64,000 nt of DNA, taken from assembly GCF_036192275.1 (NCBI RefSeq), contig NZ_CP108088.1, forward strand, positions 1,364,001 to 1,428,000, in the 5' to 3' direction. This DNA comes from Streptomyces sp. NBC_00250. Lineage in GTDB: Bacteria; Actinomycetota; Actinomycetes; Streptomycetales; Streptomycetaceae. The notes beneath the pieces are model-generated. The model saw nothing but the letters and a program-made list of their open reading frames with translations, was not told the origin of the DNA and searched no databases. Positions 1,158-8,016 of this stretch are shown piece after piece. Numbering within the stretch: position 1 is the stretch's first letter; each line of letters begins with the position of its first letter. The position numbers and the translations under genes are program-made.

Positions 1158-1197
1158 CGCGCCGACCCGGCCCTCGTCGAGGCACGGAGCGGATGGG

Positions 1198-1233
1198 CCG
1201 GAGCCCGAGCCGTGCAGCGGGCTCGGGCTCCGG
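1198..1233. terminator. strong hairpin terminator between convergent genes
   Basis: Perfect 14-bp inverted repeat (left arm CCGGAGCCCGAGCC, 1198-1211; right arm 1220-1233) with an 8-nt loop. It lies between the plus-strand gene ending at 1157 and the minus-strand pentapeptide gene ending at 1301, so it can close both transcripts. There is no U-tract, as is common in Streptomyces. Confidence 0.85.
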
Positions 1234-1300
1234 CGGGGTGCACGGGTGTCGTGCACGGGCGTGGTGCCCGCCTCCAGGACGGGCCGCACGCTCACCGGTT

Positions 1301-1318
1301 TCAGTGCCAGTACTTCAT
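1301..1318 (-). CDS. MKYWH pentapeptide, candidate minimal RiPP precursor (BytA-like)
   Basis: An 18-bp gene: ATG AAG TAC TGG CAC TGA, encoding MKYWH. Its ATG overlaps the stop of the upstream P450 gene in an ATGA junction. A very strong Shine-Dalgarno (GGGGGAGGAGG, with AGGAGG 7 nt before the ATG) lies inside the last P450 codons. A strong terminator follows about 70 bp later, so the peptide is the last cistron of a P450-peptide transcript. The established biarylitide/myxarylin family uses MxYxH pentapeptides (for example MRYYH, MRYLH), whose Tyr3 and His or aromatic residue are cross-linked by a dedicated P450. MKYWH keeps Tyr3 and His5. In described cases the peptide gene precedes the P450; here it follows it. 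That this is a true precursor is inference from sequence, but the ribosome site, junction and motif all agree. Confidence 0.72.
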   Translation of the reverse strand: MKYWH

Positions 1319-2505
1319 GGTCGTACCTCCTCCCCCGTGTGTGGACGCAGGGTGACCTCGAAGCGGTCGAGACCGCGAAGGGTCAGATTGCGCCGGTGGT
1401 CGGGTTCCGCGACTGCCCGTGCGTCGGGATAGTCCCTGGCCAGGGATCCGAGGACCGATCCGGTGAGCCGGATCGCCATGGACGCGCCCAGACAGGCATG
1501 GGCCCCGCGGCCGAACCCGAGGTGCGGGTTCGGGGCGCGGTCGAGTCGCAGCTCTGTGGGGTGGTCGAAACGGAGCGGGTCGTGGTTGGCCGCGCCCAGG
1601 AAGAGCGTGACCGGATCACCCGCCTTCATCGTGACGCCACCCAGTTCGGTGTCGGTGACGCAGACCCGGGCGTCCGCCTGGACCGGTGCGTCGTACCGGA
1701 TGAGTTCGTCCACGGCCGTGGCCGGGGTCGCCCGGAACGCGCCGAGCGCTCCGGGGGTGGTGAGGAGGGCGGCCGCCGCGTTGCCGAGCAGCCGGGAGGC
1801 CGATTCGTAGCCCGCGTGGAGGACGGCGCGCAGACTGTTGCGCAGAACCGTTTCTGCCACGCCGGTGTCCGCCGCGTGCTCGGCGACGTAGGCGATGAGA
1901 CCCGCCTTGGGCGGATCGGCCAGCCACCCGCCCGCGTACTCGGCGAGCCGGGCGCGGGCCGCGACGGCCGGCTCGTGCTTCTCGGGCCAGAGCCCGGCGT
2001 CCATGCCGTCGACGACGGTACGGGACATGGGCACGAACCAGTCGAGCTCGGGGGCCGGAACGCCGAGGAACGCGGTCACGAAGCGGAGGGCCACCGGTTC
2101 CGCGAGCTCCCCGACGAGGTCGAAGGAGGGACGCCGGGCCAACTCGGCGAGGAGGTCGTCGATCTGCCCCTCCAGACCGTCGTGCAGCGCCCGGCGGTCC
2201 TGTGCCCGGAAGCCGTCGAGCAGCAGATGCCGGATGGCGGTGTGCTCGGGCGGGTCGAGGGTCTGCACGCTGAGGAGCGGTGCGGGGATGTCCTCCCCGG
2301 CGCGGCGCCAGTCGGAGGCGAAACGGTTGCTGTCGGTGAGCACGGCGAGGCAGTCGGCGTGCCGGGTCAGGACCCAGGAACCGAGCAGTTCGTGCCATAA
2401 GACGGGTGAGGTCTCACGCATCCGGGCGTACGAGGGGTAGGGGTTCCGCAGGATCGACGGGCGGGCCAGATCCAGAATCGGGTCCACGGCTGCCGCTTGC
2501 TCCAC
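1315..2505 (-). CDS. cytochrome P450, candidate pentapeptide cross-linking enzyme (BytO-like)
   Basis: A 396-residue soluble bacterial P450. The heme motif FGRGAHACLG places the thiolate at Cys338; the ExxR motif is ELIR near 270. The I-helix reads HAGYESAS, with Ser/Ala where most oxygenating P450s have AGxDT or ETT; a missing acid-alcohol pair is often seen in P450s doing phenol coupling. I chose the GTG at 2505 because GGGGGAG sits 7 nt upstream; the in-frame ATG at 2526 has no ribosome site. Codon 36 is TTA (2400-2398), the only in-frame TTA I found in the window, so translation should depend on the bldA tRNA. The gene ends in an ATGA overlap with the MKYWH gene, suggesting that peptide is its substrate. 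It is divergent from a second P450. The substrate assignment is inference. Confidence 0.9.
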   Translation of the reverse strand: MEQAAAVDPILDLARPSILRNPYPSYARMRETSPVLWHELLGSWVLTRHADCLAVLTDSNRFASDWRRAGEDIPAPLLSVQTLDPPEHTAIRHLLLDGFRAQDRRALHDGLEGQIDDLLAELARRPSFDLVGELAEPVALRFVTAFLGVPAPELDWFVPMSRTVVDGMDAGLWPEKHEPAVAARARLAEYAGGWLADPPKAGLIAYVAEHAADTGVAETVLRNSLRAVLHAGYESASRLLGNAAAALLTTPGALGAFRATPATAVDELIRYDAPVQADARVCVTDTELGGVTMKAGDPVTLFLGAANHDPLRFDHPTELRLDRAPNPHLGFGRGAHACLGASMAIRLTGSVLGSLARDYPDARAVAEPDHRRNLTLRGLDRFEVTLRPHTGEEVRP

Positions 2506-2742
2506 GAAACGTCTCCCCCTGCGCATAGGGCCTGGTTGAGGCCTTGGCTGCTACCGAGTCGAGCCTTACGAGGCACCGGACACCGGTGGGTGGAGCGCCT
2601 CGTCGATCTTGTCACCGACTGTTCGCCGGTCCTTCGCCGTACATCGTTCGAGCCGAGCGCCGGTGACGCTACCACGCAACTTGGGTGGCTGGTATGACTA
2701 CTTGCCAGAGATCTTTCACAAAGCTTCGGGGAGTTACGGAAG

Positions 2743-3969
2743 ATGACCGGTCAAGAGCAGACAATCGTTCACGATGTCCCGGTAAACGTTGCTCAACAGC
2801 CCAACCCCTACCCGCTCTTCGAGCGCATCCGCGAGCACGGTGTCGTCCAGCGCGTGCGGCTGAATCCCACCCTTGAAGTCTGGATGGTCACGGGTTACGA
2901 CGAGGCTGTGGCCGCCCTCACCGACCCCCGGCTCAGCAGCAGTCCCGTCGGGGTGACCGGACTCGAGGAGGAGATGGCCCATCAGGAGCGCACCAACGTC
3001 CTGATGGCCAGCATGCTCGTCGCCAACGGCGAGGACCACACCCGGCTGCGCAACCTCGTCTCGAAGGCCTTCACGGCCCGACGGGTGGAGCAGCTCGCAC
3101 CCCGCGTCCAGGCGCACACCGACGCCTTCCTCGACGCGATCGCGGCACGCGGAACCGCCGATCTGGTCGCGGAGTTCGCCCTGCCGCTGCCCATGGCCGT
3201 GCTCAGCGAACTCATCGGCATCCCGGCCGAGGGACAGCCGGACTTCGCCCGTCTCGCGGTCGGCCTGATCATGCCGCCCAACACCCCGGAGCGACTGGCC
3301 AAGGGAGCCGCGGCGCGCGCCGAACTCACGGAGTTCTTCGAGCCGTTGATCGCCGAGCGCAAGAAGGAGCCGAAGGACGATCTGCTGAGCGCGTTGTGTG
3401 CCGCACAGGCGGAGGAGCGGATCAGCGACCGCGAACTGACGGCGATGACGATCCTGCTCACGCTCGCCGGACACGAGACGACGGCGAGCCTCATCGCCAA
3501 CGGCGTCCACGCCCTGTTGCGCCACCCGGACCAGTTCGCCGCCCTGCGCGACGACCCCTCGCTGCTGCCGGGCGCGATCGAGGAACTCCTGCGCTACGAG
3601 GGCCCGGTGAGCCGGGGCGTCGCCCGCTTCACCACCGACGCGTACGAGATCGGCGGGGTCACCGTCCCGCCCGGCGAGATGATCATCATCGGGCTCGCCG
3701 CGGCCAACCGCGACCCGGGCCGTTACGACCGTCCCGACATCCTCGACGTGGCACGCCGCGAGGTTCCGCAACAGCTCGCTTTCGGCCACGGTGTGCACTT
3801 CTGCCTGGGCGCGCCGCTGGCCCGCGCCGAGGCAAGGATCGCCATCGGCAGCCTGCTACGCCGCTTCCCCGACCTGCGGCTCGCCGACCCGGACGCGGAT
3901 CTGAGCCGGCGCGAGGGCATCCTGCGCGGCATGGCGACCCTGCCCGTGGCATTCACGCCCGAGGCCTGA
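2743..3969 (+). CDS. cytochrome P450 (CYP107-like)
   Basis: A 408-residue P450 with all canonical motifs: I-helix LAGHETTAS (acid-alcohol pair intact), ExxR as EELLR, and heme loop FGHGVHFCLG. It starts at ATG 2743 behind a weak GGAAG and is transcribed away from the other P450 across a 237-bp intergenic region. A methyltransferase follows on the same strand 100 bp later. It is a normal oxygenating type, unlike the divergent partner. The substrate cannot be told; possible roles are tailoring a P450/MKYWH product or an unrelated hydroxylation. After its TGA, 15-bp repeats continue an open in-frame stretch (see repeat entry). Confidence 0.92.
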   Translation: MTGQEQTIVHDVPVNVAQQPNPYPLFERIREHGVVQRVRLNPTLEVWMVTGYDEAVAALTDPRLSSSPVGVTGLEEEMAHQERTNVLMASMLVANGEDHTRLRNLVSKAFTARRVEQLAPRVQAHTDAFLDAIAARGTADLVAEFALPLPMAVLSELIGIPAEGQPDFARLAVGLIMPPNTPERLAKGAAARAELTEFFEPLIAERKKEPKDDLLSALCAAQAEERISDRELTAMTILLTLAGHETTASLIANGVHALLRHPDQFAALRDDPSLLPGAIEELLRYEGPVSRGVARFTTDAYEIGGVTVPPGEMIIIGLAAANRDPGRYDRPDILDVARREVPQQLAFGHGVHFCLGAPLARAEARIAIGSLLRRFPDLRLADPDADLSRREGILRGMATLPVAFTPEA

Positions 3970-4069: not shown

Positions 4070-4834
4070 ATGACATCGGCCTCCGGTACCGCGGAGTTCG
4101 ACGCGATCGCCCCGGGGTACGACGCCTCGCGCGGGGGCACGGCGCGGGCGGCGGGCTTCGCCGAGCAGCTCGCGCCGCTGCTCGACCCCGCCCGCCCGGT
4201 GCTCGACATCGGTGTGGGCACGGGCATCGTGGCGGCCGAACTGGCGGCACGCGGGCACGTGGTGTACGGGCTGGACCTCTCGTCCGGGATGCTCTCCCAC
4301 GCCTTGGACCGGCTCGGTCCGCGGGTGGCGGTGGCGGACGCCTGCCGGCTTCCGGTGCGGACCGGTTCGGTGAGCCAGGCGGTGTCGACCTGGCTGCTGC
4401 ACGCCGGGCCCGACCACGGCGGGGTCTTCGACGAGGTCGCCCGGGTGCTGCGCCCGGGCGGCCGCTATCTGGTCATCCCGGCCGGGGGCACCCGTCCCAC
4501 GGACGACATCGGGGTCGTGGTGGGCGAGTTGGAGGACCTGCTCGACCCGGGCAGGACCCGCCAGGACGGGCCGTGGACCCTCGCGCCGATCGCCGAGGCG
4601 CGGGGGCTCGTCTACCTGGGCAGGGCCTCCGAACGGCCCATGACCTTCCGGGTGTCGCCCCGGGCGATGGCCCGCTCCCTGTCGGGCGGCCTCTTCACCG
4701 GCGCCTGGCCGGTCACGGGCGATGCCACCCGCCTGGTGGCCGAGACCCAGGAGCGGCTCCTCGCGCTGCCGGACCCGGACGTTCCCCGCGTACGGGAAAT
4801 GGCCGACTACGTCATGAAGTTCGAGAAGCCCTGA
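4070..4834 (+). CDS. class I SAM-dependent methyltransferase
   Basis: A 254-residue Rossmann-fold methyltransferase. Motif I is VLDIGVGTG near residues 44-52, followed by the acidic ribose-binding strand end GLDLS. The motif after it, VLRPGGRYLVI, is typical of the UbiE/Methyltransf_11 group. It starts at an ATG with GGAG about 9 nt upstream. It follows the P450 at 2743 by 100 bp and is likely co-transcribed, so the two may modify the same small molecule. Acceptor atom and substrate are not visible in the sequence. Confidence 0.88.
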   Translation: MTSASGTAEFDAIAPGYDASRGGTARAAGFAEQLAPLLDPARPVLDIGVGTGIVAAELAARGHVVYGLDLSSGMLSHALDRLGPRVAVADACRLPVRTGSVSQAVSTWLLHAGPDHGGVFDEVARVLRPGGRYLVIPAGGTRPTDDIGVVVGELEDLLDPGRTRQDGPWTLAPIAEARGLVYLGRASERPMTFRVSPRAMARSLSGGLFTGAWPVTGDATRLVAETQERLLALPDPDVPRVREMADYVMKFEKP

Positions 4835-6639: not shown

Positions 6640-8016
6640 ATGACCGCCGAGTCCACCGAGACCGCAGCCCTGCGGAAGAAGGTCCGGGCGCTGATGCCCC
6701 GGGCGAAGGAGGACCTCGCCGCGCTCGTGGCGATGCGCTCCGTCGCCGACCCGCGGCAGTTCCCGCCCGAGGAATGCGCGAAGGCCGCCGACTTCCTCGT
6801 ACGGGCCTTCACGGAGGCGGGACTCCGCGACATGCGCCGGGTGACGACCCCGGACGGCACGGACGCGGTCGTCGGACACGCGCCGGGCCCCGAGGGGGCG
6901 CCCACCGTGCTCCTCTACTGCCACTACGACGTACAGCCGCCGCTCGACGACGCCGCCTGGGAGACGCCTCCCTTCGAGCTCACCGAGCGCGACGGGCGCT
7001 GGTTCGGGCGCGGCTCGGCGGACTGCAAGGGCAACATCGCCATGCACCTCACGGCGCTGCGCGCGCTGGGCGGTCCGGACGGCCGGGGCTTCCCGGTGAA
7101 CATCAAGTTCGTGGCGGAGGGTTCGGAGGAACAGGGCACGGGCGGTCTGGAGCAGCTCGTCCCCCTGCAGCCCGAACTCTTCGCCGCCGACACCCTGTTG
7201 ATCTGCGACACCGGAAACTTCGCGCGCGGCCTGCCCACCACGACCACCTCACTGCGCGGGCTCACCAACGTCGTCGTCACCGTCTCCACCCTGAAGGGGG
7301 CGATGCACTCCGGCATGTTCGGCGGCCCCGCGCCCGACGCCATGGCCGCTCTCGTCCGGATCCTCGACGGCCTCCGCGACGAAGACGGCAACACCGCGAT
7401 CAAGGGGCTGCCCGGCGACGGCGTCTGGGACGGCGTGGACTACCCGGCCGAACAGTTCCGCGCCGATGTGGGCGTCCTCGACGGGGTGTCCCTCGTCGGG
7501 ACGGGCACCGTCGCCGACGAACTGTGGGCGCGGCCCGCCGTCACCGTGCTCGGCATCGACTGCCCGCCGGTGGTGGGCTCCTCGGCCGCCGTGCAGGCGA
7601 AGGTACGCGCCAGGGTCAGCCTGCGGATCCCGCCCGGGATCGACGCCGAGGACGCCCTGCGCGCCCTCACCGACCACATCGTCGGCACCGCGCCGTGGGG
7701 TGCCCGGGTGGAGGTGGAGCCGGAGAGCTCAGGCCAGCCCTTCCGGGCGCGCACCGACGGCCCCGCCTACCGGGCGCTCGCGGCGGCACTCCGCGAGGCG
7801 TACGGAAAGGACATGGTCCAGTCGGGACAAGGCGGTTCGATCCCGCTCTGCAACGTGCTCGCCGACCACTTCCCCACCGCCGAGATCGCCCTGATCGGCG
7901 TCGAGGAACCCGGCTGTCTCATCCACGCGCCCAACGAGAGTGTCGACCCCTCCGAGATCGAGCACATGGCGCTGGCCGAGGCGCTCTTCCTCAGCACCTA
8001 CGCCACCCCGCTCTGA
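6640..8016 (+). CDS. M20-family dipeptidase (carnosinase-like)
   Basis: A 458-residue zinc dipeptidase of the M20 family (CNDP/PepV-like), cleaving dipeptides in the cytoplasm. Metal-site motifs are visible: HYDVQPP (His95), GSADCKGN (bridging Asp128), the catalytic/metal EGSEEQG (about 160), and a late His in GCLIHAPNE. The peptidase dimerisation domain lies between about residues 200 and 350. It starts at ATG 6640 with GGGAAG upstream. A membrane protein gene follows 48 bp later on the same strand. Confidence 0.92.
   Translation: MTAESTETAALRKKVRALMPRAKEDLAALVAMRSVADPRQFPPEECAKAADFLVRAFTEAGLRDMRRVTTPDGTDAVVGHAPGPEGAPTVLLYCHYDVQPPLDDAAWETPPFELTERDGRWFGRGSADCKGNIAMHLTALRALGGPDGRGFPVNIKFVAEGSEEQGTGGLEQLVPLQPELFAADTLLICDTGNFARGLPTTTTSLRGLTNVVVTVSTLKGAMHSGMFGGPAPDAMAALVRILDGLRDEDGNTAIKGLPGDGVWDGVDYPAEQFRADVGVLDGVSLVGTGTVADELWARPAVTVLGIDCPPVVGSSAAVQAKVRARVSLRIPPGIDAEDALRALTDHIVGTAPWGARVEVEPESSGQPFRARTDGPAYRALAAALREAYGKDMVQSGQGGSIPLCNVLADHFPTAEIALIGVEEPGCLIHAPNESVDPSEIEHMALAEALFLSTYATPL

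Follow-up and report, generated by a model that had tools for sequence, protein, structure and literature searches.

Within the window, by which we mean the whole stretch of 64,000 nucleotides that was analysed, a precursor gene of five codons plus TGA lies on the minus strand at 1301..1318. The reverse complement of these positions is ATGAAGTACTGGCACTGA, which reads ATG-AAG-TAC-TGG-CAC-TGA and encodes the pentapeptide MKYWH; a gene this short belongs to one of the smallest kinds known. The TGA stop codon of a P450 gene on the same strand (P450a, 1315..2505) occupies 1315-1317, and the ATGA at 1315-1318 is common to this stop and the precursor start, giving a 4-nt overlap. A ribosome site for the precursor, AGGAGG, sits within the 3' end of P450a at 1326..1331 (minus strand), 7 nt before the ATG. 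Direct reading of 1301-1331 upheld the sequence-only reading that had reported a frame at an ATGA junction with AGGAGG 7 nt upstream. The window has a single match to the pattern ATG-N3-TAY-N3-CAY-TRA, and 100 shuffles gave none.

The same reading had placed a strong terminator behind the precursor. Folding does give hairpins there (1197..1292, minus strand), and these are strong (111 nt, z = -7.0, with 0 of 200 shuffles equally good) and might serve as a terminator, but they have no T run and a terminator scan found no terminator-like site behind the precursor; a textbook terminator was thus rejected and only the strong hairpins stood. When the first 70 nt after the precursor were folded in nine loci, z ranged from -1.5 (L019) to -5.3 (L014), so the hairpin is common but unequal in strength.

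The open frame of P450a reaches an ATG at 2526, and its likely start is the GTG at 2505, which is preceded by a GGGGGAGA site and is identical in 21 aligned sequences (the window and 20 loci, L019 excluded); the ATG at 2526 is not conserved. P450a and a second P450 gene, P450b (2743..3969, plus strand), diverge across the 237 bp at 2506..2742 (no strand assigned), which we regard as a divergent control region and which has a conserved core in the alignment of the window and 20 loci. A scan of 2506-2742 found no sigma-70-like site, and a sigma-70 promoter between the two P450 genes was rejected. P450b, proposed here as a tailoring enzyme, is CYP107-like with a Pfam p450 match, and its nearest solved chains are 5cje and PikC. 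Beyond it, at 4070..4834 (plus strand), is a class I SAM methyltransferase (Pfam Methyltransf_11), proposed as an optional tailoring enzyme. Its identification as mad2 was rejected, with the partial-length match (E 1e-13) taken as general methyltransferase likeness. Searches of defence libraries gave no match for P450a or P450b.

Conservation of the precursor gene

Scanning one genome per species gave 21 Streptomyces loci with a P450a that is 81-99% identical, and MKYWH follows just behind P450a, exactly, in all 21. The ATGA overlap with the P450 stop is found in 16 of these loci (L001-L013, L015, L019, and L020). The precursor ATG starts one base past the P450 stop in L014, L016, and L018 and 22 bases past it in L017; in L021 (genome G248), a break further up disrupts the P450 frame, MKYWH is intact, and the overlap is not measurable. 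The sequence-only reading had proposed looking for absence or drift of the frame in close homologues, and the frame is present and unchanged in each of the 21 loci. All 18 precursor bases are identical across 24 loci, with variable flanks on both sides, and column identity over the ribosome-site run GGGGGAGGAGG is 0.88-1.0 (24 loci). L031 and L033 carry the 18-mer too, on the opposite strand. An 18-bp gene is held exactly within a Streptomyces clade.

Of 392 Streptomyces genomes, 14 contain MKYWH preceded by a ribosome site at a fixed distance, always at P450a, and the backwards control pattern of MKYWH and ribosome site has no matches. MKYWH was found in 0 of 200 genomes in the family of genome G605, counting ATG starts and TAA or TGA stops only. 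As a separate observation, the broken P450a frame of L021 (4001-5192 of that locus) lies beside an intact P450b and MKYWH and may represent either an assembly error or a decaying locus.

We considered whether the pentapeptide frame might have arisen by chance at the 3' end of the P450 gene or have only a regulatory role there. The precursor spans only 18 bp, and the codons kept in it are those preferred by G+C-rich genomes; nevertheless, MKYWH remains exact in L014 and L016-L018, with the P450 stop lying 1 or 22 nt ahead of it, and even in L021, despite the broken P450 frame. Residue invariance alone is modest evidence because 59 of the 384 five-residue windows within P450a are equally invariant, whereas not one of the 383 six-codon windows within P450a is codon-invariant. 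The shuffles also speak against a chance frame, as does the finding, described below, that related P450s come with related pentapeptides (42 of 46 loci versus 0 of 46 on the other strand). Based on the exactness in 21 loci, the 14 of 392 genomes, the shuffles, and the strand control, we rejected a chance frame and hold this reading to be scarcely credible.

Relatives of P450a and their precursors

P450a has a Pfam p450 match, and its nearest solved chains are 22yx, 9m47, 8spc, 8spp, 9eby, and 8u2m. The last of these is named P450Blt in PMC12352619, per which P450Blt makes C-N links in Tyr-x-His peptides, and its specificity is set by A231, H234, and E238 (PMC10929621). In the I-helix of P450a, RAVLHAGYES, the distances between Ala, His, and Glu match those between these three residues, as judged from spacing rather than from an alignment to P450Blt.

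P450a matches are present in 45 of the 392 Streptomyces genomes, with 14 being orthologues. The 31 other Streptomyces matches, 4 places from a class search, 9 loci of family f19, and 2 plasmid loci (taken from 4 plasmid records matched) make up a set of 46 distant loci, in which the P450 is 35-57% identical to P450a. A short frame here means one of 5-7 residues that has a ribosome site and carries Tyr, Trp, or His at both position 3 and position 5. On the P450 strand, 42 of the 46 loci have such a frame within 3 kb, compared to 0 of 46 on the other strand, and the counts within 250 nt are 38 and 0, respectively. There is no short frame in L063, L078, L086, and L089, and the sole short frame of L060, L074, and L109 is uncertain, being more than 1.3 kb away.

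A tree of 58 proteins places P450a in a supported clade (99/91) with loci carrying MRYVH, MRYIH, MRYRH, MRYWY, MRYAY (L106, a long branch whose placement is unsure), and MRHxH. The precursor is downstream in 18 of 18 rows of this clade that have a precursor (6 are MKYWH orthologues, and 5 more rows come without DNA). A second small group has it downstream in three of four rows (L077, L079, and L111) and upstream in L074. The sequence-only reading had called the order of peptide after P450 reversed, and these counts, along with a downstream MRYWY in PMC13417212, led us to reject the idea that a reversed order is new. Precursor position requires 3 changes over the whole tree versus about 16 in shuffles and, judged in this way, follows P450 ancestry.

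MKYWH satisfies the five-residue MxYxY/H rule for biarylitides given in PMC13417212. The closeness of precursor and P450 gene that characterizes biarylitides takes the form of the 4-nt overlap here, and the ribosome site ahead of the precursor is the AGGAGG at 7 nt, which is kept. By its place in the tree, its solved relatives, and its I-helix, P450a belongs with the biarylitide cross-linking enzymes, as a predicted Tyr-His cross-linking P450 of the BytO type. The initial proposal of a biarylitide-type precursor with its P450 is borne out by the tree, the solved relatives, and the conservation of MKYWH.

P450a could instead modify its peptide without cross-linking, e.g., by RufO-like nitration of tyrosine, with MKYWH serving as the carrier of the modified residue. 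RufO is closely related to the P450s of biarylitides, yet the nearest known enzyme acting on MKYWH, AchB, cross-links (both per PMC13417212). The best NCBIfam match of P450a is the model for the nitrating P450 TxtE, though with 141 bits where the cut-off is 500. A nitration pathway would call for a co-encoded nitric oxide synthase; none was detected among the 12 neighbouring proteins scanned between 28 and 11239 (two of them without a family), and we rejected this pathway as very improbable.

Several other loci found in this survey deserve mention in their own right. Six of them (L057, L058, L059, L061, L062, and L110) have P450s that are 45-48% identical to P450a, followed by MRHAH, MRHVH, or MRHIH, with His at both positions 3 and 5; MRHAH occurs twice in L057, and the I-helix of these P450s is RVVLQAGFQT. 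They are candidates for a His-His link. In the literature library searched, MRHAH, MRHVH, MRHIH, MxHxH, and MRHxH matched no biarylitide paper, the 2 hits being on unrelated subjects to judge by their titles, and models of peptides with His-3 are mentioned in PMC13417212. The loci L067, L069, L072, and L073 have an MRYAY precursor before two P450 genes in a row, an arrangement that differs in kind from P450a/P450b. The upstream frame of L085 and L087, which precedes a P450 of the P450a family, is MRYDHCL, with seven residues rather than five. Lastly, a plasmid of Bacillus arachidis (L111) has MNYNH 70 nt after its P450, with two annotated ATP-grasp genes and an IS6 transposase nearby, and is a candidate plasmid-borne biarylitide locus in Bacillota.

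The second P450 and the extent of the gene block

The sequence-only reading had called the precursor and P450a a minimal unit, which proved incomplete, as P450b and usually the methyltransferase belong to the conserved block. All 21 loci have P450b next to P450a (truncated where the contig ends in L019). A methyltransferase with at least 71% identity accompanies them in 15 of the 21; it is 47% identical over 180 residues in L021, not assessable in L019, and absent in 4 of 21 (L008, L009, L011, and L013). The same 14 of 392 Streptomyces genomes hold a P450a orthologue (at least 92%), a P450b orthologue (at least 94%, with the next best match at 52%), and the precursor with its ribosome site. 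Much of this co-occurrence reflects common descent, since the two P450s are linked mainly within one Streptomyces clade and 16 of the 21 loci adjoin opcA. In L016-L018, the block of methyltransferase, P450b, P450a, and MKYWH is intact at different places on the chromosome, where the remaining 35 window frames tested had no match within 9.2 kb (8 loci were tested in this way).

No protease is encoded within the block, and none is needed inside known clusters, per PMC12951456. Two genes near the block, an acetyl xylan esterase with a weaker Peptidase_S9 match (28-660 of the window) and an M20 peptidase (6640-8016), do not accompany it in L016-L018.

There are four cases outside this clade in which a P450a homologue (53-55%) and a P450b homologue (49-53%) appear to lie on one contig, namely Micromonospora sp. 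NPDC003197, Spirillospora sp. NPDC127200, and two metagenome contigs (9.3 and 5.3 kb). Shared contigs were judged on equal size and source and, in two cases, by organism name; the two long ones are 328 and 377 kb, which does not prove that the P450s are adjacent. The comparison took in 88 of 88 P450a and 107 of 110 P450b entries below the orthologue clades, from the best 120 of 275 and the best 120 of 332 matches, respectively, and a fifth coinciding contig (2,183 bases, two sources) was dropped as too short for both genes. The P450a and P450b homologues of each pair are only 29-34% identical to one another, and all four P450b homologues are within the 12 best below the orthologue clade among the matches listed. 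The Spirillospora P450a homologue is 92% identical to a protein from Actinomadura hibisca (P0100) that we infer from the species name to be AchB, and because this homologue appears to share its contig with a P450b homologue, AchB-type clusters may have a second P450 too. An old pairing of P450a and P450b is weakened by L101-L106, which have a P450a homologue and a precursor and in which no P450b neighbour was found within about 4 kb.

The block might consist of two separate units, i.e., a complete biarylitide system of P450a and MKYWH and, next to it on the chromosome but otherwise unrelated, a divergent operon of P450b and the methyltransferase. The situation in L101-L106 fits such a division, and bytAO alone makes biarylitide YYH in a heterologous host (PMC9113118), although the conserved core between P450a and P450b and the apparent sharing of contigs in four cases outside the clade speak for a joint unit. 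Linkage through descent would likewise be consistent with all 14 genomes with the pair being of one genus and with the 16 loci beside opcA, but not readily with L016-L018, where the block has stayed intact elsewhere with the 35 other window frames unmatched. We consider the division into two units unlikely but by no means negligible.

Proposed pathway and relation to known peptides

The sequence itself establishes the precursor gene and how well it is conserved, as well as the family of the P450 and the make-up of the gene block, and we consider it highly probable that the locus is a biarylitide cluster whose product is a Tyr-His-linked YWH, probably oxidised again by P450b, with the methyltransferase, where present, in the same pathway. 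One message from the divergent region would carry P450a and the five-codon gene, and we infer that the precursor is translated by coupling at the P450a stop or from its own ribosome site, the overlap basis for coupling being lost in four loci (L014, L016-L018). P450a would then oxidatively join Tyr3 to His5 of MKYWH, as others have shown for the Tyr-His C-N link of a homologue, most likely between Tyr C6 and His N-tau with the loss of 2 Da. A peptidase would remove Met-Lys to leave cyclic YWH; a prolyl oligopeptidase is indicated for leader removal in myxarylin (PMC12951456). P450b and, where present, the methyltransferase would probably modify the linked peptide later.

It is possible, if somewhat doubtful, that the product is a doubly oxidised biarylitide in which P450a closes the Tyr3-His5 ring and P450b then acts on Trp4 through hydroxylation or a second ring, in which case work on AchB-type clusters would have missed their second enzyme, with linked YWH as an intermediate. 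The choice of Trp4 as P450b's target is guesswork. Trp4 is invariant in MKYWH loci, and L101-L104, without P450b, carry Val, Ile, or Arg at position 4; against this, MRYWY in L105 keeps Trp4 without a P450b neighbour, and the invariance could need no P450b, because AchB itself prefers Trp4 (PMC13417212). If P450b does act on Trp4, this would explain why a residue uninvolved in the first link is invariant, and the pathway would continue beyond the published in vitro product. P450b is a candidate for a missing later step of MKYWH biarylitides.

An MKYWH biarylitide, with Lys2 and Trp4, was already described in 2026 in PMC13417212, the sole match for the string MKYWH in the literature library searched. 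That paper reports a solved Tyr-His C-N link for AchB of A. hibisca on Nle-KYWH as well as unsuccessful in vivo attempts, and gives the biological role of MKYWH biarylitides as unknown. Its text lacks the word methyltransferase, and the phrase second P450 is absent among the 12 of 24 places listed. As it names both MKYWH and an MRYWY about 1400 bp downstream of its P450 in Stackebrandtia and Actinocatenispora, neither the peptide nor the gene order is new, and the novelty that the sequence-only reading saw in Lys2 and Trp4 has to be given up.

The A. hibisca system has an identical precursor and a homologous P450 (P0100 is 54% identical to P450a), but that protein has Val, His, and Thr at the three I-helix positions where P450a has Ala, His, and Glu; since two of the three differ, it is not certain that P450a forms the same Tyr-His link. 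A comparison of the A. hibisca protein to 18 genomes in the genus of G842 gave two matches at 58%. The bytA/bytO pair of Planomonospora similarly has a pentapeptide gene with a ribosome site beside a cross-linking P450 (PMC9113118), while in the MRYYH example L091 the precursor is upstream, unlike the downstream and overlapping precursor of the window. MRYWY biarylitides share Trp4 and a downstream precursor, and the example L105 lies in the P450a clade; they differ in that the precursor is about 1.4 kb (PMC13417212) or 1.56 kb (L105) away, in having Tyr5 rather than His5, and, in L105, in having no P450b neighbour. Methyltransferases beside biarylitide genes are mentioned in PMC9113118. Myxarylin also combines an MxYxH precursor, a P450, and a methyltransferase in its cluster, but its precursor is MNYLH and its methyltransferase acts on the N-terminus of the freed peptide (PMC12951456, PMC8708641); CorZ was not among the names given to matches of the window methyltransferase.

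In the case of hyalucidin A, a RiPP from tandem P450 catalysis that is cited in PMC13417212, two P450s act on one RiPP, and the two linked P450s of the MKYWH locus may likewise act in turn on one precursor. Its cluster may prove to be of the same kind as MKYWH/P450a/P450b, and owing to this citation the second-P450 part may itself be known. The locus is a real and well-conserved biarylitide cluster of a peptide kind already in print, and what it adds to the known systems is the conserved second P450.
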